From positions 1 to 37,280 of the forward strand of contig NZ_CANLEA010000036.1 of NCBI RefSeq assembly GCF_947489565.1: a stretch of 37,280 nt of DNA, in the 5' to 3' direction. Positions 231 to 37,280 of the stretch are shown here, one piece after another (the stretch's first letter is position 1; every line of letters starts with the position of its first letter). The notes beneath the pieces are model-generated. The model had not been told where the DNA came from, made no database searches, and was given only the letters and a program-made list of their open reading frames with translations. This DNA comes from an uncultured Kordia sp. (GTDB lineage: Bacteria > Bacteroidota > Bacteroidia > Flavobacteriales > Flavobacteriaceae). A program made the translations under genes and the position numbers.

Positions 231-1913
231 CTAATAACCAACCGCTTTATCATCCCCACGCGGATCTGCGCCGCCTTCCAATTTTCCATCAGGTAAGACT
301 AAAATTCCTTCTACCTTTCCAATCACAGGACTATTCGTTGCATCAATCGTATAACCAAGTTTGGTCAATGTTGCTTTCAATTCATCACTAAATCCTTTAG
401 GTTCCATCTTTACAGTATCTGGCAACCATTGATGATGAAAACGCGGCTGATTGATGGCTTCCTGCATGCCCATTTTGTACTCATGTACATTTAAAATAGT
501 TTGCAAAACACTGGTAATAATCGTTGATCCGCCAGGCGTTCCTACAACTATATATAATTTTCCGTCTTTTTCAACAATTGTTGGTGTCATAGAGCTTAAC
601 ATACGCTTTTCGGGCGCAATACTGTTCGCTTCAGCACCTACGAGTCCAAACATATTCGGAACACCAGGTTTTGCGCTAAAATCGTCCATTTCGTTGTTTA
701 AAAAGAAACCTAACTCCTCACAATACAATTTAGATCCGTACGCACCATTAATCGTTGTCGTAACAGAAACGGCATTTCCAAAGGAATCTACAATAGAGTA
801 GTGGGTAGTTTCATCGCTTTCTACAAACTCAATATTTCCGTGTGCAACTTCTGACGAAGGCGTGGCTTTTTCAAAAGAAAATGTAGACATACGTTCTTTG
901 ATGTATTTTTCGCTTAATAAAGTTTCTGTGGGAATAGTAACGAAATCAGGATCGCCTAAAAAGTGGTTTCGATCTGCATAGGCTCTACGTTCCGCTTCCG
1001 TAATCAATTGAATGGCTTTGGTAGTGTTATGTCCAAGTTCCGCCAAATCATACGGTTCAATCGCTTTCATAATTTCTGCCAAGCAAATTCCTCCACTTGA
1101 TGGTGGCGACATCGAAATAACGCGTAAATCATCATAGGTAAAGGTAATAGGCGTACGCCATTTTGCTTCGTATTTTGCCAAATCTTCCATCGTCATAATT
1201 CCGCCAGATTTTTGCATAAAATCAACCAATTTCTGCGCAGTTTCACCTTTGTAAAATTCATCACGTCCATTTTTCTGAATGCGTTCCAAGGTTTTTGCCA
1301 ATTGCAACCGTTTGATGGTATCTGTTGCTTTCCAATCTTTAGCAAATAAGAAATTTGGATTGTTTACTTTTAAAAAGGTTTCACGGTATTTTTCTAAACG
1401 TTCTTGCTGCTTTTTGGTCACAACCACTCCTTTTTTAGCGAGTTCAATCACAGGTGCAATAATTTCTTCCATAGCTAGTTTTCCATATTTTCCATGCGAA
1501 GCATAAATACCAGCAATATTCCCCGGAATTCCTACGGCCATGGAACCAAGCGTACTTTTATTTGGAATTACTTGATCGGTAATAGAATCGATATACATGT
1601 TTTTAGTTGCTGCCAATGGTGCTTTTTCACGAAAATCTAACGAACCAATACGACCATCTTCCAATCGATACACCATAAATCCGCCGCCGCCTAAACTTCC
1701 TGCATACGGATACGCAACTGCGAGTGCTAATTCGATTCCTGCCATGGCATCAAAAGCATTTCCACCTTTTTTAAGAATGATATTTCCAATTTCAGAAACT
1801 TCTTCACGCGCCGATACAACCATAGCATTTTCAGCGATTACACCTTTTACTTTCTCGGTTTTACAAGAAAAAAGAAGCAAGCAACAGAAGCCAAAAAGAA
1901 AAGATTTATTCAT
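231..1913 (-). CDS. ggt: Gamma-glutamyltransferase lipoprotein
   Basis: This is an N-terminal nucleophile hydrolase that cleaves or transfers the gamma-glutamyl group of glutathione and related peptides in the envelope. The 560 residues are full length for the family. A signal peptide ends in a lipobox (LLLFSC, Cys17), so it should be a lipoprotein. The glycine-rich GSLGGGGFM lies near residue 73. The autocatalytic site TTHYSIVD places the nucleophile at Thr369, which would become the first residue of the small subunit after self-cleavage. FLNNEMDDF and GTPGGSTI, which bind substrate and form the oxyanion pocket in the family, are present. The start lies 2 bases after the stop of the ACP phosphodiesterase gene, so the two are probably co-transcribed. 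Family assignment is firm; the physiological substrate is not shown by the sequence. Confidence 0.96.
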   Translation of the reverse strand: MNKSFLFGFCCLLLFSCKTEKVKGVIAENAMVVSAREEVSEIGNIILKKGGNAFDAMAGIELALAVAYPYAGSLGGGGFMVYRLEDGRIGSLDFREKAPLAATKNMYIDSITDQVIPNKSTLGSMAVGIPGNIAGIYASHGKYGKLAMEEIIAPVIELAKKGVVVTKKQQERLEKYRETFLKVNNPNFLFAKDWKATDTIKRLQLAKTLERIQKNGRDEFYKGETAQKLVDFMQKSGGIMTMEDLAKYEAKWRTPITFTYDDLRVISMSPPSSGGICLAEIMKAIEPYDLAELGHNTTKAIQLITEAERRAYADRNHFLGDPDFVTIPTETLLSEKYIKERMSTFSFEKATPSSEVAHGNIEFVESDETTHYSIVDSFGNAVSVTTTINGAYGSKLYCEELGFFLNNEMDDFSAKPGVPNMFGLVGAEANSIAPEKRMLSSMTPTIVEKDGKLYIVVGTPGGSTIITSVLQTILNVHEYKMGMQEAINQPRFHHQWLPDTVKMEPKGFSDELKATLTKLGYTIDATNSPVIGKVEGILVLPDGKLEGGADPRGDDKAVGY

Positions 1914-17963: not shown

Positions 17964-19415
17964 ATGAAAAAAATGGCATTACATTGGAAAATTTTGATAG
18001 GAATGGTCTTAGGCGTGCTTTTCGCTTTCATCCTATTATGGACTTCATGGGGAAGTGAAAAAGTAGTTCTAAAAGAAATTCCTGCTTCATACGAAATTGT
18101 CCAAGAGGTCATAAATGGAGAAATAGTGAGTTCGTTCAAAGAAATCAAAGCTAAAACTGTTGAAGTTACACGAGCTGAGCATTTTATAAGTCGTTGGGTA
18201 AAACCTTTCGGAACTATTTTTATCAATTTATTAAAATTGATTGCAGTTCCGTTAATTTTAGCTTCGCTCATTAAAGGTATTTCTGATTTAAAAGATATTG
18301 CCAAAATTAAAAAGATGGGATTACGAACCATAGGAATTTATGTGGTTACAACGCTCGTTGCGATTATCATCGGGTTGGGAATTGTAAATACGGTAAAACC
18401 AGGAGAAGGAATGCCGAAAGAAACGATTGAAAAAATTAAAGAAAAATATGTAAACTCTGATGGTGTCAAAGATAAAATGACCAAAGCGGCAGCGCAAAAA
18501 GATGCTGGACCATTACAAGCGTTGGTAGATATTTTTCCACAAAATATCTTTAAATCGTTAGGAGAAGCTAAAATGCTTCAAATCATCTTTTTTGCACTGT
18601 TTTTAGGAATTTGTTTATTACTCATTCCAGCAGAAAAAGCCAAACCCATGATTGATATATTCGATTCCTTGAATGAAATAGTCATGAAAATGGTGGATTT
18701 AATTATGTTATTTGCACCATACGCCGTTTTTGCACTCTTAGCAAATGTTATTGTCGCCTTTGATGATCCTGAGATATTAATGAAACTTTTATCCTATGGA
18801 TTGTGTGTTGTGGGCGGATTGATTTTAATGATTGTTTTTTATCTAATCATTGTCAGCGTATACACGAAAAAATCGCCATTATGGTTCCTAAAACAAATAA
18901 GTCCTGCGCAATTACTAGCTTTCTCAACAAGTTCCAGTGCGGCAACCTTGCCAGTTACGATGGAAAGAGTAGAAGAGCATATTGGAGTTGATAAAGAAGT
19001 CTCTGGATTTGTATTGCCAGTTGGTGCTACTGTAAATATGGACGGAACGAGTTTATATCAAGCAATTGCTGCCGTATTTATCATGCAAGTGCTCACACCA
19101 GAAGACATCAATTTTCAAGTACAATTAATCATCGTATTTACCGCATTATTGGCTTCTATTGGAAGTGCAGCTGTACCAAGTGCAGGAATGGTAATGTTGG
19201 TAATTGTGTTAGAATCTGTAGGATTTGATCCTGCATTACTACCAGTAGGATTGGCATTAATCTTTGCAATAGACAGACCGTTAGACATGTGTAGAACCGT
19301 TATCAATGTCACAGGAGATGCCACCGTTTCAATGGTTGTCGCCAAATCATTAGGGAAATTACACGATCCTAAACCTAAAAATTGGGACGATAATTATCAA
19401 CCTGAAGAATCATAG
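17964..19415 (+). CDS. Dicarboxylate/amino acid:cation symporter
   Basis: A 483-residue DAACS (GltP/DctA) secondary transporter of acidic amino acids or C4-dicarboxylates, driven by Na+ or H+. Seen: the serine-rich hairpin TSSSAATLPVTM (about 320-331), NMDGTS (about 358), a second hairpin AVPSAGMVMLV (about 398) and DRPLDMCRTVINVTGD (about 436), the substrate-site helix. A segment of about 120 residues after the first helix (KEIPASYEIV and onward) is a longer periplasmic insertion than in GltP. The gene follows the four-helix protein by 14 bases. The substrate cannot be decided between Glu/Asp and dicarboxylates. Confidence 0.92.
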   Translation: MKKMALHWKILIGMVLGVLFAFILLWTSWGSEKVVLKEIPASYEIVQEVINGEIVSSFKEIKAKTVEVTRAEHFISRWVKPFGTIFINLLKLIAVPLILASLIKGISDLKDIAKIKKMGLRTIGIYVVTTLVAIIIGLGIVNTVKPGEGMPKETIEKIKEKYVNSDGVKDKMTKAAAQKDAGPLQALVDIFPQNIFKSLGEAKMLQIIFFALFLGICLLLIPAEKAKPMIDIFDSLNEIVMKMVDLIMLFAPYAVFALLANVIVAFDDPEILMKLLSYGLCVVGGLILMIVFYLIIVSVYTKKSPLWFLKQISPAQLLAFSTSSSAATLPVTMERVEEHIGVDKEVSGFVLPVGATVNMDGTSLYQAIAAVFIMQVLTPEDINFQVQLIIVFTALLASIGSAAVPSAGMVMLVIVLESVGFDPALLPVGLALIFAIDRPLDMCRTVINVTGDATVSMVVAKSLGKLHDPKPKNWDDNYQPEES

Positions 19416-19479: not shown

Positions 19480-20511
19480 ATGAATATCTGTTTTTTAATG
19501 TATCCTTGGGAAGATATCGATCCAGAAAACGATACAAGTTTAGCTTTAATTAAAGAATGTGTAAAACGCGGACATGGCGTTGCTATGTGTACACCTTCTA
19601 ACTTAACCATTCGCGATAGTGTAACGAATGCTTTTTGTACTGTAATCAGTAGAATGGACAAAGTGCCCAGCACCTTAAAATCGTTTTATACAAAAGCACA
19701 GTTAAGAGAAGAAATGTTGCCATTAGCTGGTTTTGATGTAATTTTTATGCGTGCAAATCCGCCATTAGATCCAATTATGTTGAACTTCTTGGATTCTGTA
19801 AAAGATGATGTCTTTATTGTGAATTCGTTGCAAGGAATGCGAGAAGCTAACAATAAGTTATACACAGCGGCTTTTGGAGATGCGCACAGCAATATCATTC
19901 CAAATACGCATGTTTCTAAAAATAAAGACTATTTAGTAAAGCAAATCAAAGAATCGAAAGCAGATAAAATGATTTTGAAACCTTTGAATGGTTTTGGAGG
20001 TTCAGGTGTGATTTTAATTGAGAAATCCGCCATGAACAACATTAAATCCTTACTAGATTTTTATATCACAAGTGGTGATGGTTCTTCCAACTATGTCATT
20101 TTACAAGATTATATTGAAGGAGCTGATCAAGGTGATGTTCGTATTTTACTCTTAAATGGAGAACCTATCGGAGCCATGAAGCGTGTGCCAGGATCAGATG
20201 ATCACAGATCGAATGTAAGTGCTGGTGGAAGCGTTCAAAAACATACCTTAACCAAAGAAGAAAAAGCTTTGTGTAAGCAAATTGGTCCGAAATTAGTGAA
20301 TGACGGACTGTATTTTGTTGGAATTGATGTTATTGGAGGAAAACTAGTAGAAGTGAATGTAATGTCTCCAGGCGGAATTACCTACATTAACAAAGTATAT
20401 AAAGTGAAAATTCAGGAAAAAGTAATTGACTTCGTTGAAAGTAAAGTCACGGATAAATTACAGGCATTTGACAGACGTGTTCGATTACGTAAAGCTGTTG
20501 ACGAAGCCTAA
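19480..20511 (+). CDS. GshB-like ATP-grasp ligase
   Basis: A 343-residue ATP-grasp enzyme clearly related to glutathione synthetase GshB, which joins a carboxylate to an amine through an acyl-phosphate. Matches: MRANPPLD (90-97), GMREANNKLYTAAF (119-132), LKPLNGFGGSGV with the ATP Lys167, QGDVRILLLNGEPI (217-230), SAGGSVQKHTL (247-257) and EVNVMSPGG with the metal-binding Glu291 and Asn293. No gamma-glutamylcysteine ligase (gshA) lies nearby, so a glutathione role is not supported by context; it is followed by an NFGA-family hydrolase and a DUF1704 peptidase, and a different peptide or amine substrate is plausible. The stop overlaps the next start by one base (TAATG). Confidence 0.9.
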   Translation: MNICFLMYPWEDIDPENDTSLALIKECVKRGHGVAMCTPSNLTIRDSVTNAFCTVISRMDKVPSTLKSFYTKAQLREEMLPLAGFDVIFMRANPPLDPIMLNFLDSVKDDVFIVNSLQGMREANNKLYTAAFGDAHSNIIPNTHVSKNKDYLVKQIKESKADKMILKPLNGFGGSGVILIEKSAMNNIKSLLDFYITSGDGSSNYVILQDYIEGADQGDVRILLLNGEPIGAMKRVPGSDDHRSNVSAGGSVQKHTLTKEEKALCKQIGPKLVNDGLYFVGIDVIGGKLVEVNVMSPGGITYINKVYKVKIQEKVIDFVESKVTDKLQAFDRRVRLRKAVDEA

Positions 20512-21344
20512 TGAAAATACAAATTACAAACCCAATAATATCTACAGATTGGTTGCAGGAACATCTTCATGCAATCAATCTTGTTGTTTTAAATGGAACC
20601 ATTCCAAGAGTAGTAGATGCAGGTTCTAAAACGGAAACGACTCAAATTCCGAACGCACGTTTTTTTGATATCAAAAAAGTCTTTAGTGTGATTGATGCAC
20701 CTTTTCCAAACACCATGATTTCCGTAGAAGATTTCACTGCAAAAGCACAAACATTAGGCATCAATCAAAACAGTGCCATTGTTGTGTATGATGAGTTAGG
20801 GATTTATGCTTCACCAAGAGTTTGGTATATGTTCAAAGCTATGGGATTTGACAATATTGCAGTATTAAACGGCGGATTTCCTGCTTGGAAAGCTGCAAAC
20901 TATCAAGTAGAAAGCAAAACTTTATACAATGGAGATTTAGGAAATTTTCAAGGGAAAGATCGTTTGCATCTATTCAAAAATTATTACGGAATGCTTCAGG
21001 AGATAGAAACTTCAAACAGTTGTATTCTTGATGCGCGTTCCGAAGGAAGATTTACTGGCAACATTCCAGAACCGAGAAAAGGATTGCGCAGCGGGCAAAT
21101 TCCAAGCTCAAAAAATCTTCCATATACAAGCTTATTAAACAATCAGACATTTAAATCAAAAGCAGCACTTCAAGCAATATTTTCATCCTATCAAACCGAA
21201 AAAAAAGCATTCACGTTTTCATGCGGCACAGGAATTACAGCTTGTATTCTGGCTTTAGCAGCTGAACATGCAGGTTTTAAAGAATACAGTGTATATGATG
21301 GTTCATGGACAGAATGGGGAAACTTATACAAAGAAACTGAGTAA
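20511..21344 (+). CDS. Two-domain sulfurtransferase (rhodanese)
   Basis: A 277-residue protein of two rhodanese domains, similar to thiosulfate or 3-mercaptopyruvate sulfurtransferases (SseA/TST), which move sulfane sulfur to cyanide, thiols or proteins. The first domain has SPRVWYMFKAMGF and LNGGFPAWKAA (about 101-128); the second has the catalytic loop CGTGITAC with Cys238. CGTGITAC is close to the CGSGVTAC of mercaptopyruvate sulfurtransferases, but substrate choice is not certain. It overlaps the ATP-grasp gene by one base and is translationally coupled to it. This is unusual company for a GshB-like ligase and could mean a role in sulfur handling by the cluster. Confidence 0.92.
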   Translation: MKIQITNPIISTDWLQEHLHAINLVVLNGTIPRVVDAGSKTETTQIPNARFFDIKKVFSVIDAPFPNTMISVEDFTAKAQTLGINQNSAIVVYDELGIYASPRVWYMFKAMGFDNIAVLNGGFPAWKAANYQVESKTLYNGDLGNFQGKDRLHLFKNYYGMLQEIETSNSCILDARSEGRFTGNIPEPRKGLRSGQIPSSKNLPYTSLLNNQTFKSKAALQAIFSSYQTEKKAFTFSCGTGITACILALAAEHAGFKEYSVYDGSWTEWGNLYKETE

Positions 21345-21357
21345 ACAACCAAACATA

Positions 21358-21365
21358 TAAATTTG
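21358..21365 (+). promoter_or_regulatory. Possible -7 box
   Basis: TAAATTTG matches the Bacteroidota -7 consensus and lies 84 bases ahead of the ATG at 21450. There is no -33 TTG at a usual distance, so this is a weak call for an internal promoter of the small membrane protein gene. Confidence 0.3.
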
Positions 21366-21449
21366 CAAAAAAACTACTGTAGTTCTAATTTTGGTTATGA
21401 TGATATTGAATATAATATGCTGATTATCTATGTATTATAGATTACAATT

Positions 21450-21776
21450 ATGAAGGAAAAAGAAAATAAAGAATCTATCAGTATTGAAATAGACAATGAA
21501 TCGACAATTTTGAAAAAACTGAAGTTAAAACAAAAAAGTCTATTCAAACAAGCTAGCACCTTAGGAATTATTGCTCTTGGCGTTATTGGATTCGGTGCAT
21601 ATGCAAGTTTTTCTGAATGGGTAGAATTCCCAATATTTCAAGCGGCTATTGGTGCTGGAGGAATCTTGTTGGCAATTGCATTTAGACCTGTACAACAATG
21701 CAAAAAACAAATAGATATTCACGAAAAAAAACTCCGAGAATTGGAATCATTATTAAAAAAGAATAATTTAGAGTAA
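21450..21776 (+). CDS. Small two-helix membrane protein
   Basis: A 108-residue protein of unknown family. A charged N terminus (about 1-35) predicted to be helical is followed by two adjacent membrane helices (about 37-56 and 62-80) and a C-terminal amphipathic coiled-coil-like segment (QIDIHEKKLRELESLLKK). The same layout, with two helices between a charged N-terminal helix and a C-terminal coiled coil, appears in the next gene (21860-22378), and the two may be distant paralogues. It lies between the sulfurtransferase and the amidohydrolase genes. No catalytic residues are visible; an adaptor or anchor is possible. Confidence 0.7.
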   Translation: MKEKENKESISIEIDNESTILKKLKLKQKSLFKQASTLGIIALGVIGFGAYASFSEWVEFPIFQAAIGAGGILLAIAFRPVQQCKKQIDIHEKKLRELESLLKKNNLE

Positions 21777-21859
21777 GAATCAGATGTGCGAGTTTCTCAT
21801 TATAGAACAAGAGGATACATTGTAAAGTAATGTTTTAATTATTTTTAAATAAATTATTG

Positions 21860-22378
21860 ATGAATACTAAAGCACATTGTCATATTTGTGATCACAGAAT
21901 TTATGATTTCCAAACAGGATCCATATGTGGAATTACACAATAAGCACCTAGTTTTCAAAATAAGTGCGATGTGATAAAATTAGAACAGCAATTAGAAGCT
22001 AGAATTGTAGATGTGTATACAAAACTAGAATTGGTGACTAAAACTAAAAAAGATACAATCAGCCACTTTATTTTCTATTGTTTAGGGATTGTTGGCGTGT
22101 TTATAGTCGCTAATTTATTAAGTGCTTCAGAAACTTCTATAAGAGGTTATTCAATGTCTCCATTTGTCATATTTTTAGTCATATGCTTTGCAGCAGTAGC
22201 TATTGGTCCCATAAATAAATACAGAAGAGATTATAAAATTGCTAAAAAACAGCAAGAGGAGTTGGATGAACTTTTAAAAATCTATAAATTAGATTATAAA
22301 GTTTCTGTCAAAATTATAAATGAAGCTCATGGAGATTTTGATGTAGAAAAAGAAATAAAAATATTTAGAGTAGGATAG
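21860..22378 (+). pseudogene. Zinc-ribbon membrane protein split by an in-frame stop
   Basis: Reading from ATG 21860, the frame encodes CHICDHRIYDFQTGSICGIT, then a TAA at 21941, then in the same frame APSFQNKC and a two-helix membrane protein of 135 residues that begins at GTG 21971. Together these give a four-Cys pattern (CxxC ... CG ... C) of a small zinc-binding N-terminal domain, known to me from flavobacterial membrane proteins, followed by a charged helix, two membrane helices (about 35-80 of the downstream part) and a coiled-coil C terminus. The stop needs only a single-base change from a sense codon. Either the gene is broken, or the downstream part is made alone by reinitiation. Codon use does not suggest transfer. 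Confidence 0.65.
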
Positions 22379-22382
22379 CTAA

Positions 22383-23216
22383 ATGATTATGAAAAAACTA
22401 ACTATTGACCAAATTGTAACCAAGATTCAGCAAGAAGAACTATTTGAAGCTGTTTCTGCCGATTATTCTTTTACGATTAAAATTGACAAATACGTGCCAT
22501 ATGCTTGTGGTGCTGTGCATGACGGACATCAATTTAGACGCGAACTTTGGGAAAATTGCATTCATACCGAATATGAGCGTTGGTTTGAAGAAGATCCAGC
22601 CACGAAAGAAATGGTACAAACGCATCCAATTGTGATTGCCGGAATGGATTCTCGTTTTGAATACGATCTAAACCGTGCTCCAGAAAGCGCTATTTACGAA
22701 GATGCTTGGGGAAAACAATTGTGGCATTCGCCTTTGCCAGCAGCAATGAAGCAGAAGAGTTTGGACAAGCATGCTAATTTTTATAAAGTAGTACATGCGT
22801 TGATTGCCAAATTGGAAGAAAAATTTGGTGTATGTGTCGTGTATGATATGCACTCATACAATTGGAAACGTTGGGAGCGAGAAGTACCAACGTTTAATTT
22901 AGGCACAGGAAATGTTGATAATGAGCGTTTTGGTGATATTATAGAGTCTTGGCGTAACATGTTGTCCGAAATAAAATTACCCAATGGAATTGCTTCTACG
23001 TCAAAAATCAATGATACGTTTCAAGGAAACGGATACTTTTTAAAGTTCATAACACAGCATTTTAGCAATACCTTAGTTTTGGCAACTGAAGTAAAAAAGA
23101 TATATTGCGACGAAATTAATCAAATCATGTTCCCCGAAGTGGTTTCCGCATTAGAAAAAGCTTTAAAAACGCTTGTTCCGCAACATGCAAACGACTTTTA
23201 TCAAAAACATAGCTAA
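22383..23216 (+). CDS. N-formylglutamate amidohydrolase family protein
   Basis: A 277-residue member of the N-formylglutamate amidohydrolase (NFGA/HutG-like) family of zinc hydrolases that cleave amide bonds of N-formyl- or N-acyl-glutamate. Seen: YACGAVHDGHQFRREL (40-55), DSRFEYDLNRAP (89-100) and YDMHSYNW (154-161) with Asp155 and His157 as presumed metal or base residues. No histidine-degradation genes are present, so a role in histidine catabolism is not supported; the same context holds a GshB-like ligase and a DUF1704 peptidase. The start is ATG 22383 or ATG 22389, 4 or 10 bases after the previous stop. The DUF1704 gene follows after 18 bases. Confidence 0.88.
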   Translation: MIMKKLTIDQIVTKIQQEELFEAVSADYSFTIKIDKYVPYACGAVHDGHQFRRELWENCIHTEYERWFEEDPATKEMVQTHPIVIAGMDSRFEYDLNRAPESAIYEDAWGKQLWHSPLPAAMKQKSLDKHANFYKVVHALIAKLEEKFGVCVVYDMHSYNWKRWEREVPTFNLGTGNVDNERFGDIIESWRNMLSEIKLPNGIASTSKINDTFQGNGYFLKFITQHFSNTLVLATEVKKIYCDEINQIMFPEVVSALEKALKTLVPQHANDFYQKHS

Positions 23217-23234
23217 GAAAAGAACGTAGTACGA

Positions 23235-24392
23235 ATGAATGATATCAATGTAGCGAGCAAAGTGCTTTTTGAAATAGATAAAAATATTGACGATTTAGTA
23301 AAGAAAGTAGAATTACTAAGTTATGTCAACCCATTGAATATGGAAGAAGAAAAACAAAAATTCTTCCAATCAAAATACCTTACCGATCCTAAGTTTGTAT
23401 ATCCAAAAATTGACTTTGATCGTTTTCATTTGCATAGAGAGTTATTTGAACAACCTATAGAACAAATTGAAAATGAATCTACTAGAGCATTGTACGAAGA
23501 TATTATTTATGCATATTCTGGATTGATTCAATGTATAGAAACCATCGGAACAAAACATAAGTTTTATTACAATAGTTTGCGTTCTTTTGGAACACCAACA
23601 GAGCAAGATGTCGAAAATGCTAAGTTTATTCTGCATTTTGATGAAGAAGATGAAAATGAAGCGCAGTTTCAACCAAAATACAGTGCAGAAGAAACAGCAA
23701 AGTTATTCCGAGAATATTCATCACAATACGATTTTTCATATCAAATCAAGTTTTCAAAAGATATGAGCGCTATCGCCATGGTGTTAAACAACATCAAAAC
23801 GCTCGTGATTAATGAAAGACATACGTTTTCAGATAATGAAATTGCCGTATTGACCAATCATGAAATTGGTGTGCACATGGTAACAACGATGAACGGATTA
23901 TTGCATCCACTAAAAATATTCGCCAACGGTTTTCCAAATTATGAAGAAACTCAAGAAGGTTTGGCCGTTTTTTCAGAATATATGAGTAACAATTTAACGG
24001 TAAAACGTTTAAAAGAATTGGCATATAGAGTCATTGCAGTCGATAGTTTGGCGAAAGGATATTCGTTTTCTAAAACATTCCGATTGTTTGTAAATACGTA
24101 TGATTTAGATCGTGAAACAGCTTTTAATGTATCAACAAGAGCGCATCGTGGCGGCGGATTTACCAAAGACTATTTATATCTCACAGGATTAAAAAAAGTA
24201 TACGATTACTACAAATCAGGAAAAGATATGAAACCATTATTGCGTGGTAAAATTTCTTTGAATTACTTAGAAAGCATAGAATCGTTGGCAAAAAATGGTT
24301 GCGCATTGGATTCTAAGCACATTACAGATTCGTACATGCAAAACAACAATACGAATAAAACGGTAGACTTTATTTTAGAGAATTTGAAGTAA
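23235..24392 (+). CDS. DUF1704/QEGLA zinc carboxypeptidase-like protein
   Basis: A 385-residue protein of the DUF1704 family (the flavohemoglobin expression-modulating QEGLA group), which also includes the vertebrate tubulin tail carboxypeptidases MATCAP/TMCP. The metal site HEIGVH (His209, Glu210, His214) and downstream QEGLA (Gln240, Glu241) with AVFSEY are intact, and RAHRGGGFTKDYLYLTG (302-318) is conserved. It is probably a soluble metallopeptidase that trims C-terminal residues, but the substrate is unknown. It sits 18 bases after the NFGA-family gene, so the ligase, sulfurtransferase, hydrolase and peptidase genes form one long same-strand run. A lanthipeptide-like precursor gene begins 84 bases downstream. 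Confidence 0.88.
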   Translation: MNDINVASKVLFEIDKNIDDLVKKVELLSYVNPLNMEEEKQKFFQSKYLTDPKFVYPKIDFDRFHLHRELFEQPIEQIENESTRALYEDIIYAYSGLIQCIETIGTKHKFYYNSLRSFGTPTEQDVENAKFILHFDEEDENEAQFQPKYSAEETAKLFREYSSQYDFSYQIKFSKDMSAIAMVLNNIKTLVINERHTFSDNEIAVLTNHEIGVHMVTTMNGLLHPLKIFANGFPNYEETQEGLAVFSEYMSNNLTVKRLKELAYRVIAVDSLAKGYSFSKTFRLFVNTYDLDRETAFNVSTRAHRGGGFTKDYLYLTGLKKVYDYYKSGKDMKPLLRGKISLNYLESIESLAKNGCALDSKHITDSYMQNNNTNKTVDFILENLK

Positions 24393-24476: not shown

Positions 24477-24644
24477 ATGAAAAAACGTAATGAATCATTA
24501 TTAAAATTGGGAAAGAAAAATATCGCAAGTTTCAAAAAACTACATACTATAGTTGGTGGAACTAATGATGGAACCTTAAAAACATGGAATCTAGGATCAT
24601 ATGCGCCTACGTGTGCTGAAAATTCAAACAATGAAGCCTGTTAA
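24477..24644 (+). CDS. Putative GG-leader RiPP precursor (short)
   Basis: A 55-residue peptide: basic leader MKKRNESLLKLGKKNIASFK, then a TIVGG processing site (Gly27-Gly28) and a 27-residue core rich in Thr, Ser and Asn with two Cys (46 and 55, the last residue). Leader and GG site match the flavobacterial class I lanthipeptide-like precursors, in which Cys thiols react with dehydrated Ser/Thr; no dehydratase or cyclase is in the window. Its 20-base 5' flank starts with TAACATTAAAAT, identical to the flank of the precursor at 26682, and it ends at its own terminator. Too short for most gene finders. The precursor nature is inferred from pattern. Confidence 0.7.
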   Translation: MKKRNESLLKLGKKNIASFKKLHTIVGGTNDGTLKTWNLGSYAPTCAENSNNEAC

Positions 24645-26681: not shown

Positions 26682-26951
26682 ATGAAAAAGCGTAATATAT
26701 CAAATTTGAAATTAAGAAAAAGTAGAATTTCAAACCTAACTCTTCTACACGGAACCAAAGGAGGAACAGTTACAGGAGCTACTGAACAAGAACCATCGAA
26801 TGTAGTAACGGAAAATACAGATTGTGGTAGTTGTCAAGAATGTATTTCGGAGAATCCTACCGATTGTATTACTAACGATACTACCAAATCGTTACAGTCA
26901 CCTAGTATTGTAGTTGCGTGTAATGGATTTGGAACAATGGCAAATTGTTAA
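26682..26951 (+). CDS. Class I lanthipeptide-like precursor A
   Basis: An 89-residue precursor. The leader MKKRNISNLKLRKSRISNL carries the KxxISxL pattern of flavobacterial class I lanthipeptides; GTKGG (Gly27-Gly28) is the likely cleavage point. The 61-residue core has six Cys (48, 51, 54, 62, 80, 89) and many Ser and Thr, ending in ANC. Its C-terminal part NDTTKSLQSPS, followed by VACN and a terminal Cys, is nearly shared with the next precursor. It follows the TPR-AraC gene by 84 bases, with the same 5' flank as the gene at 24477. No lanthionine-forming enzyme is in the window. Confidence 0.78.
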   Translation: MKKRNISNLKLRKSRISNLTLLHGTKGGTVTGATEQEPSNVVTENTDCGSCQECISENPTDCITNDTTKSLQSPSIVVACNGFGTMANC

Positions 26952-26990: not shown

Positions 26991-27281
26991 ATGAAAAAGA
27001 AAAGTTTATCAACATTAAAATTAAAAAAAAGCAAAATTTCAAGTTTAAATTTGTCGAATCAACTTGGCGGATATAATTCAGGCGAAACAACTACTTTTAC
27101 AACGGATGCATCTGAAACAAATCCGAATTATACAATTACATGTTATACGCTATATTGTGGAGAAACAGAAACCTGTGAAACTGGATGCGGAGGCTGTAAT
27201 ACAAATGATACTACACGCAGTCAACAAAGTCCAAGTTTGCAAGTTGCATGCAATGCTTTGGGATCAATTCTTGGCTGTTAA
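26991..27281 (+). CDS. Class I lanthipeptide-like precursor B
   Basis: A 96-residue precursor paralogous to precursor A. Leader MKKKSLSTLKLKKSKISSL, probable cleavage after LGG (Gly26-Gly27), and a 69-residue core with seven Cys (51, 56, 62, 66, 69, 87, 96). The stretch NDTTRSQQSPS, then VACN and a final Cys, lines up with precursor A, while the middle is different (CGETETCETGCGGC). It lies 39 bases after precursor A and ends at a strong palindromic terminator. A second ORF in another frame (27064-27330) is a shadow. Processing and product are inferred. Confidence 0.78.
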   Translation: MKKKSLSTLKLKKSKISSLNLSNQLGGYNSGETTTFTTDASETNPNYTITCYTLYCGETETCETGCGGCNTNDTTRSQQSPSLQVACNALGSILGC

Positions 27282-37203: not shown

Positions 37204-37280
37204 TCTAACAAGTCTAACAAGTCTAACAAGTCTAACAAGTCTAACAAGTCTAACAAGTCTAACAAGTCTAACAAGTCTAA
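37204..37280. repeat. Nine-base tandem repeat
   Basis: TCTAACAAG is repeated about 8.5 times and may continue beyond the window. Related TCTAACAATCTAA tails occur at 212-238 and 15330-15343, at gene 3' ends. There are no spacers, so it is not CRISPR. Confidence 0.95.

Follow-up and report, generated by a model that had tools for sequence, protein, structure and literature searches.

We analyzed a stretch of 37,280 nucleotides from an uncultured Kordia sp. (the whole of contig NZ_CANLEA010000036.1; hereafter the window), in which six open reading frames (ORFs) follow each other on the plus strand between positions 19480 and 24392 (table 1). They encode a GshB-like ATP-grasp ligase, a sulfurtransferase-like protein, two small proteins designated H1 and H2, a diverged hydrolase with the fold of N-formylglutamate amidohydrolase (NFGA), and a zinc carboxypeptidase-like protein of the MATCAP/DUF1704 (QEGLA) family, hereafter MATCAP. 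Re-deriving the ORF coordinates reproduced the run given in a preliminary description of this DNA, including the single base common to the first two genes and the spacings of 4 and 18 bases between the last three; the gaps in the middle of the run, computed from the same coordinates, are wider (105 and 194 bases). The claim that the six genes form one unit did not survive, and a six-gene operon was rejected as the unit, because among 80 related loci the sulfurtransferase gene is present in 39, the gene for H1 in one, and that for H2 in none. The core of the locus is three genes, those for the GshB-like ligase, the NFGA, and MATCAP.

Table 1. Features of the window, the six genes of the run first
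Feature	Positions	Strand	Matches and remarks
GshB-like ATP-grasp ligase (type A), 343 aa	19480..20511	+	Core gene; PF02955 3e-55, PF02951 2e-25
3-Mercaptopyruvate-sulfurtransferase-like protein	20511..21344	+	Accessory in some relatives; PF00581 1.5e-22; CGTGIT loop 238-243
H1, small protein without known family	21450..21776	+	Outside core; 1/80 loci
H2, small protein without known family, GTG start	21971..22378	+	Outside core; 0/80 loci
Diverged N-formylglutamate amidohydrolase-fold hydrolase (NFGA type A), 277 aa	22383..23216	+	Core gene; PF05013 3.2e-13
MATCAP/DUF1704 (QEGLA) zinc carboxypeptidase-like protein, 385 aa	23235..24392	+	Core gene; PF08014 4.8e-97
SDF (glutamate/dicarboxylate-type) symporter	17964..19415	+	Directly upstream of module; PF00375 1.3e-119
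Gamma-glutamyltransferase	234..1913	-	TIGR00066 E 5.7e-168; N-terminus lipoprotein-signal-like by eye
Short ORF	24477..24641	+	
Short ORF	26682..26948	+	
Short ORF	26991..27278	+	
Tandem repeat near contig end	92..218		34-base unit, 3.7 copies
Tandem repeat at other contig end	37204..37280		9-base unit TCTAACAAG, 8.6 copies, 100%

Relatives of the window MATCAP were collected by scanning one genome per species for 84,980 species, which yielded at least 556 confirmed relatives, and the loci of the 80 most similar (L045–L124) were used for comparison. By record titles all 80 are from Bacteroidota, and we take most of the genera to belong to the Flavobacteriaceae; the closest named relatives in this set are two Kordia species whose MATCAPs are 84 and 88% identical to that of the window. 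Adjoining MATCAP in these best 80 of at least 556 loci, we found GshB in 76 and NFGA in 79, and three of the four loci lacking GshB (L068, L072, and L097) are contig edges. With mechanically called starts, NFGA and MATCAP are separated by a median of 3 bases (30 or fewer in 63 of 79 loci), and in the 36 loci that have GshB and NFGA as neighbours the two overlap by a median of one base. The association extends beyond close relatives: GshB and NFGA accompany 18 and 16, respectively, of 20 order-level loci (window included; one is a fragment without usable MATCAP), four of which have the sulfurtransferase gene, as well as seven and six of eight further Bacteroidota loci, and six and seven of seven plasmid loci from Alpha- and Gammaproteobacteria, examined out of 127 matching records. 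The conserved neighbourhood on which the preliminary description had staked its proposal is thus present, and the association of ligase, NFGA, and MATCAP is tight and spans phyla.

Of 246 Flavobacteriales genomes, 20 encode MATCAP, and in an overlapping sample of 395 Bacteroidota genomes 19 do. Strong matches to the GSH-S_ATP model (E value of 1e-49 or less, the next-best being 9e-23) mark 21 sites spread over 19 of these Flavobacteriales genomes; 18 of the 19 have one such match within 3.5 kb of MATCAP, a distance within which a random position would fall by simple arithmetic in approximately 0.2% of 4-Mb genomes, although the genomes are related and the 18 cases are not independent. In the nineteenth genome (G083, 65% complete) the GshB gene extends up to the edge of a contig of 3,451 bases, and the remaining two of the 20 MATCAP genomes (G203 and G233) account for a MATCAP of a solo type and a contig-edge fragment.

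Two architectures of the module can be distinguished. Type A, as in the window, consists of GshB-A, NFGA-A, and MATCAP, and is also found in Photobacterium (L144), the GshB of which is 61% identical to that of the window. Type B, found in Bacteroidota and Alphaproteobacteria, consists of NFGA-B, a MATCAP lengthened to 609–643 aa by an additional N-terminal domain, and GshB-B, which is approximately 30% identical to GshB-A. In three loci of this type (L043, L142, and L143) the genes are annotated as NFGA, QEGLA, and "glutathione synthase" or "synthetase". Two loci (L026 and L030) are mixtures in which type A GshB and NFGA lie beside type B MATCAP and GshB, as if the parts of the module were interchangeable. 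Among 35 further loci (L021–L039, L133–L140, L141, and the seven plasmid loci), NFGA and MATCAP form a single protein of 662–681 aa in ten (L027, L028, L029, L031, L032, L033, L036, L134, L144, and L042); this fusion occurs in none of the 80 closest loci, 79 of which have the two as separate neighbours. By identity, MATCAP and GshB split into the same A and B groups, with A–B identities of 26–34% in both families and within-group identities of 34–91% and 35–86% for MATCAP and 39–97% and 35–88% for GshB. In 24 chosen loci, with L026 and L030 represented by their type B GshB, the pairwise distances of the two families correlate with r = 0.87, a value reached by none of 9,999 permutations but uncorrected for shared ancestry.

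The N-terminal domain of type B MATCAPs spans approximately 230 aa, and Pfam scans of two full-length proteins gave no significant match to it. Aligning the profile of 11 such domains with that of six fused NFGA domains using hhalign gave a match of 97.1% (E value 4.9e-11) over 194 columns from end to end, whereas the best of 40 column permutations reached an E value of 0.051, the reversed alignment 0.71, and six unrelated families of the region 0.12 or weaker. In the alignments this domain lacks the SR..DLNR segment and has other residues in place of DxHS, so it is probably a degenerate and dead NFGA. If this holds, there are three forms of linkage between NFGA and MATCAP: adjacent genes, a live fusion, and a fusion with a degenerate copy.

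The motif positions previously given for the ligase, NFGA, and MATCAP were confirmed, and these three enzymes are motif-intact. MATCAP of the window carries HEIGVH at residues 209–214 and QEGLA at 240–244 (QEG at 240–242), and H209, E210, H214, and E241 are invariant in alignments of 15 and of 44 sequences. It matches PF08014, which 15 of 15 aligned members match at an E value of 0.001, with 325.6 bits (cut-off 27), and is related to the QEGLA protein model TIGR02421, whose cut-off of 338.65 it does not reach (305.2 bits). The best Foldseek match of its AlphaFold2 model (pLDDT 91.9) is human MATCAP (7z5g; E value 2.5e-9, probability 1.00, TM-score 0.59 by query length), followed by a putative lipoprotein (3o0y, 1.2e-3) and then bacterial carboxypeptidases such as 3hq2 (2.6e-3), which we take to be a member of family M32. 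By family and fold, the protein is a predicted zinc carboxypeptidase. It has PF08014, HExxxH with a downstream EG, KD..YL.G, and the fold in common with the tubulin carboxypeptidases MATCAP1/2 (TMCP1/2, KIAA0895L and KIAA0895) of animals, but is approximately 20% identical in the Foldseek alignment and, unlike them, is encoded with a ligase and an NFGA. Bacteria of this sort are not known to have tubulin, and the substrate must therefore differ from that of the animal enzymes. The latter are described as HExxxH metallocarboxypeptidases with a third zinc ligand in the EG motif, and the title of the same paper also names deglutamylation (PMC10499314). For bacterial MATCAP/DUF1704 proteins, which are annotated as "flavohemoglobin expression-modulating QEGLA motif protein", no reaction was found in the literature searched. 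The name reportedly originates from a transposon study in Pseudomonas. According to PMC8070244, fhp is co-regulated by PA3697, which may be a QEGLA protein.

The window NFGA has the motifs DSRFEYDLNR at residues 89–98 and DMHSYN at 155–160, passes PF05013 (50.8 bits, cut-off 28.9), and shares SRxxxDLNR and DxHS with three canonical N-formylglutamate amidohydrolases (hhalign 92.7% over 125 columns). Its AlphaFold2 model (pLDDT 92.3) is matched best by the N-formylglutamate amidohydrolase 2q7s (E value 9.8e-12), also by 2odf, and then by metallocarboxypeptidases such as 4a37 (4.6e-4), presumably of family M14. Although PF05013 and the fold are common to it and HutG, it falls far below the cut-off of the HutG deformylase equivalog TIGR02017 (19.9 vs. 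278.75 bits) and belongs to a separate diverged subfamily tied to MATCAP. Mentions of N-formylglutamate amidohydrolase in PMC12431658 and PMC8743541 have no bearing on the module.

In the ligase, KPLNGFGGSG (residues 167–176), GDVR (218–221), and EVNVMSPGG (291–299) represent the motifs KPLxGxGG, GDxR, and ExNVx(S/T)PG, which together with RSN are kept in 16 of 16 aligned type A and B members. The arginines of GDxR and RSN, which we assume to bind substrate carboxylates in Escherichia coli GshB, are thus retained. The protein exceeds the cut-off of NF009110 (473 vs. 408 bits) and stays below those of TIGR01380 glut_syn (246.6 vs. 299.05) and of the RimK subfamily model TIGR00768 (98.6 vs. 143.4). 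With E. coli GshB (1gsa) it shares the fold family and most ATP-grasp motifs, aligning over nearly the full length (phmmer E value 1.5e-41), but it is 31% identical to an E. coli gshB (plasmid record H50) and its setting differs, as it adjoins MATCAP in 18 of the 19 Flavobacteriales genomes with a strong match and the host genome has neither of two gshA families. Genome-wide profile searches of this genome (G000; 6.4 Mb, 99.99% complete) detected no match to PF04262 or PF04107, for which controls matched in two and five of 14 genomes, respectively; a third gshA model, PF08886, matched neither the host nor any control genome and is uninformative. The other result that would have refuted the preliminary proposal, a gshA elsewhere in the genome, was thus looked for and not obtained for the first two families. 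Among the 20 Flavobacteriales genomes with MATCAP, leaving aside eight Bacteroidota genomes added later, PF04262 was found in none and PF04107 in two. BshC of bacillithiol synthesis is present in the host and in 26 of 26 MATCAP genomes searched, which shows an alternative thiol rather than a link to the module, since BshC may be general in this group. In PMC6282198, N-methyl-bacillithiol was detected in a Polaribacter, bacillithiol in Bacteroidetes is predicted from genes, and gshA is present in only 79% of genomes bearing gshB. The view expressed beforehand that glutathione is not the main job of this ligase is, because the two gshA families are absent and BshC is present, supported but not proven, and ordinary glutathione synthesis appears unlikely.

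Expression data are available from Photobacterium damselae grown at 1% versus 3% NaCl. In that study, A0J47_RS17020 (GshB) rises 38.4-fold and A0J47_RS17025 (QEGLA protein) 27.5-fold at 1% NaCl, as do RimK (52-fold) and a dicarboxylate symporter (7.8-fold), and its abstract counts 888 genes that rise at low salt (PMC10308900). We read the first two genes as a type A module because their tags are consecutive and Photobacterium sp. DA100 (L144) has this layout. The strong induction at low salinity suggests a role of the module in osmotic adaptation in that Photobacterium.

The linkage across phyla, the NFGA–MATCAP fusion, the probable degenerate domain, the matched ligase and peptidase groups, the intact motifs, and the absence of two gshA families lead us to propose, with confidence that is evenly balanced, that a ligase and two hydrolases act on one glutamate-containing, peptide-like substrate, similar to RimK/RimB or TTL/MATCAP pairs. 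The GshB-like ligase would, by its family, spend ATP on activating a carboxylate and then join it to the amine of an amino acid; MATCAP would remove the C-terminal residue of the substrate; and NFGA would cut an acyl-amide bond on the amino side of a glutamate-like residue in the same substrate. Because they are fused in some loci, NFGA and MATCAP would act in sequence or together, and candidate targets are a free peptide or a protein C-terminus. A bacterial ligase and a peptidase that undoes its product can share an operon, as RimK and RimB do (PMC12239564). The module resembles two pairs of an ATP-grasp ligase with a retropepsin, RimK/RimB and RloC/RloA, in that the ligase is encoded with a peptidase, but differs from both in having a zinc peptidase of the MATCAP family, a GshB-like ligase, and a third enzyme with the N-formylglutamate amidohydrolase fold. 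The cycle of adding and removing an amino acid put forward in the preliminary description is, given these enzyme classes and the RimK/RimB precedent, a fair inference. The more specific idea that distant relatives of tubulin-code enzymes (an ATP-grasp ligase, MATCAP, and an M14-like hydrolase of the N-formylglutamate amidohydrolase fold) perform such a cycle, induced by low salinity, on one glutamate-rich tail or peptide, and that this is the native setting of bacterial MATCAPs, we regard as speculative and rather doubtful.

Several observations weigh against the proposal that the three enzymes share a substrate. No activity, substrate, or mutant phenotype of any bacterial member was found in the literature searched, and the 80-locus set is biased to close relatives, just as shared ancestry bears on the distance correlation. 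MATCAP can also occur without the ligase. Maribacter flavus (L122) keeps MATCAP without an adjacent GshB or NFGA, and a search of its genome yielded no close relative of GshB, the best match being 28% identical over residues 110–322 (E value 8.7e-13). L133 (8931–10205) and L021 (11722–12996) each encode a solo MATCAP of 424 aa that has neither GshB nor NFGA within 3.5 kb and may represent a third lineage of the family, that of L021 having HEAFVH in place of HEIGVH, and a Vibrio locus (L042) has the NFGA–MATCAP fusion yet no GshB within 3.5 kb. In L037, L038, and L139, GshB-B is present and NFGA absent; an AstE/AspA-type gene (Pfam run on the L038 copy) lies nearby, on the same strand in the first two and on the opposite strand in the third, but profile comparison found no relation to NFGA and any replacement is merely positional. 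Lastly, the N-terminal domain of type B MATCAPs compares weakly with the profiles of separate NFGA-A and NFGA-B (E values 0.0016 and 0.02, probabilities 16% and 2%; best of eight permutations each, 0.16 and 0.22) and does not match three canonical N-formylglutamate amidohydrolases (0.44), so that its reading as a degenerate NFGA rests on the fused proteins as intermediates.

Among the alternatives, reversible editing of a protein tail, in which an amino acid added to a C-terminus by the ligase is taken off again by MATCAP, in the manner of TTL and MATCAP acting on tubulin or of RimK and RimB acting on ribosomal protein S6, with NFGA as an accessory, is consistent with the match of the MATCAP fold and motifs to the tubulin enzyme, with the RimK/RimB precedent, and with the rise of RimK alongside the GshB/QEGLA pair at low salt. 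We nevertheless consider it unlikely, as the closest family of the ligase is GshB and not RimK, the third partner derives from a family of small-molecule hydrolases and points to a small substrate, and the operon has no evident target protein. Salvage of glutathione or gamma-glutamyl compounds, with imported gamma-Glu-Cys serving the ligase as precursor of glutathione or an analogue and imported peptides being trimmed by the hydrolases, appears less probable still. The ligase passes the glutathione synthase equivalog NF003573 (293 vs. 272 bits), which also counts against the shared-substrate proposal and, with the near full-length alignment to E. coli GshB, leaves room for glutathione-like chemistry, including use of imported gamma-Glu-Cys; in addition, a GCS2-type gene is present in two of the 20 MATCAP genomes (G102 and G167), and gamma-glutamyltransferase genes lie in the window and near the type B module of L137 (14597–16399). 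On the other side stand the scarcity of both gshA families among MATCAP genomes and their absence from the host, the universal presence of BshC in those searched, and the score below TIGR01380, and salvage would leave the fixed bond to MATCAP unexplained. A catabolic or osmolyte pathway, in which the hydrolases degrade an N-acyl-glutamyl peptide serving as compatible solute while the ligase either produces that peptide or restores a related one, is similarly improbable: the NFGA fold, the low-salt induction of both neighbours and of the dicarboxylate symporter, and the AstE/AspA-type gene near three genome-set loci with GshB but without NFGA are in keeping with it, whereas the SDF symporter beside the module is backbone, the module lacks a known compatible-solute synthesis gene, and induction of ligase and hydrolases under one condition would be unusual for pure breakdown.

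Although the protein families are already known, we found no description of the GshB–NFGA–MATCAP linkage, the degenerate NFGA domain, or the low-salt link in the open-licence literature searched, with priority uncertain. Most MATCAPs examined accompany a particular ligase and a second hydrolase, to which some are fused in living or apparently dead form, which turns the question of their function into a three-enzyme assay. The findings also suggest that, in bacteria lacking gshA, some genes annotated as "glutathione synthase" have another product, a point of consequence when thiol metabolism is predicted from genome sequences.

The SDF symporter is found in 61 of the 80 related loci and is probably not part of the module; the symporter and chorismate synthase were considered as partners supplying glutamate or tyrosine and rejected as chromosomal backbone, because the AroC–SDF pair is also found in G133, a genome without MATCAP, and lies on a different contig from the module in G241. 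Where other genes separate SDF from GshB, as in some relatives, most of them look like unrelated surface proteins (N-termini of ten loci, by eye). A small TerB-like protein, with a Pfam match below the cut-off (E value 0.008, L034 copy), directly precedes NFGA in 25 of 80 loci, and a DCC1-type thiol-disulfide oxidoreductase gene (PF04134), which is not in the window and may merely mark the backbone, lies downstream of the module in 51 of 80. In Patiriisocius marinistellae (L104, 6101–6933) the NFGA frame before MATCAP is split into two ORFs by a frameshift or sequencing error, and in L137 (12617–14092) a D-Ala-D-Ala-ligase-like ATP-grasp protein (NF002378 E value 3e-24, below the cut-off) is encoded directly upstream of type B NFGA and MATCAP.

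Of the genes within the run that lie outside the core, the sulfurtransferase scores below the cut-off of NF008557 (177.7 vs. 250 bits). At an E value of 0.01, H1 has no Pfam or NCBIfam match, and H2 no Pfam match and NCBIfam matches all below the cut-off. The single relative with H1 is Kordia aestuariivivens (L045), and H2 is absent from both Kordia loci as well. H1 and H2 contain hydrophobic stretches by eye and are weakly alike (25% identity over 89 residues of H1, E value 1.5e-5 with composition correction off); they may be an old duplication. Downstream of the run, the three short ORFs of table 1 begin alike with MKK, continue with leaders rich in lysine, and have a GG stretch ahead of the C-terminal part. 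Two are Cys-rich, and by eye the three resemble precursors of peptide natural products; none has an NCBIfam match above the cut-off. A tandem repeat lies near each end of the contig (table 1), and the one at 37204–37280 is perhaps the place where the assembly stopped.

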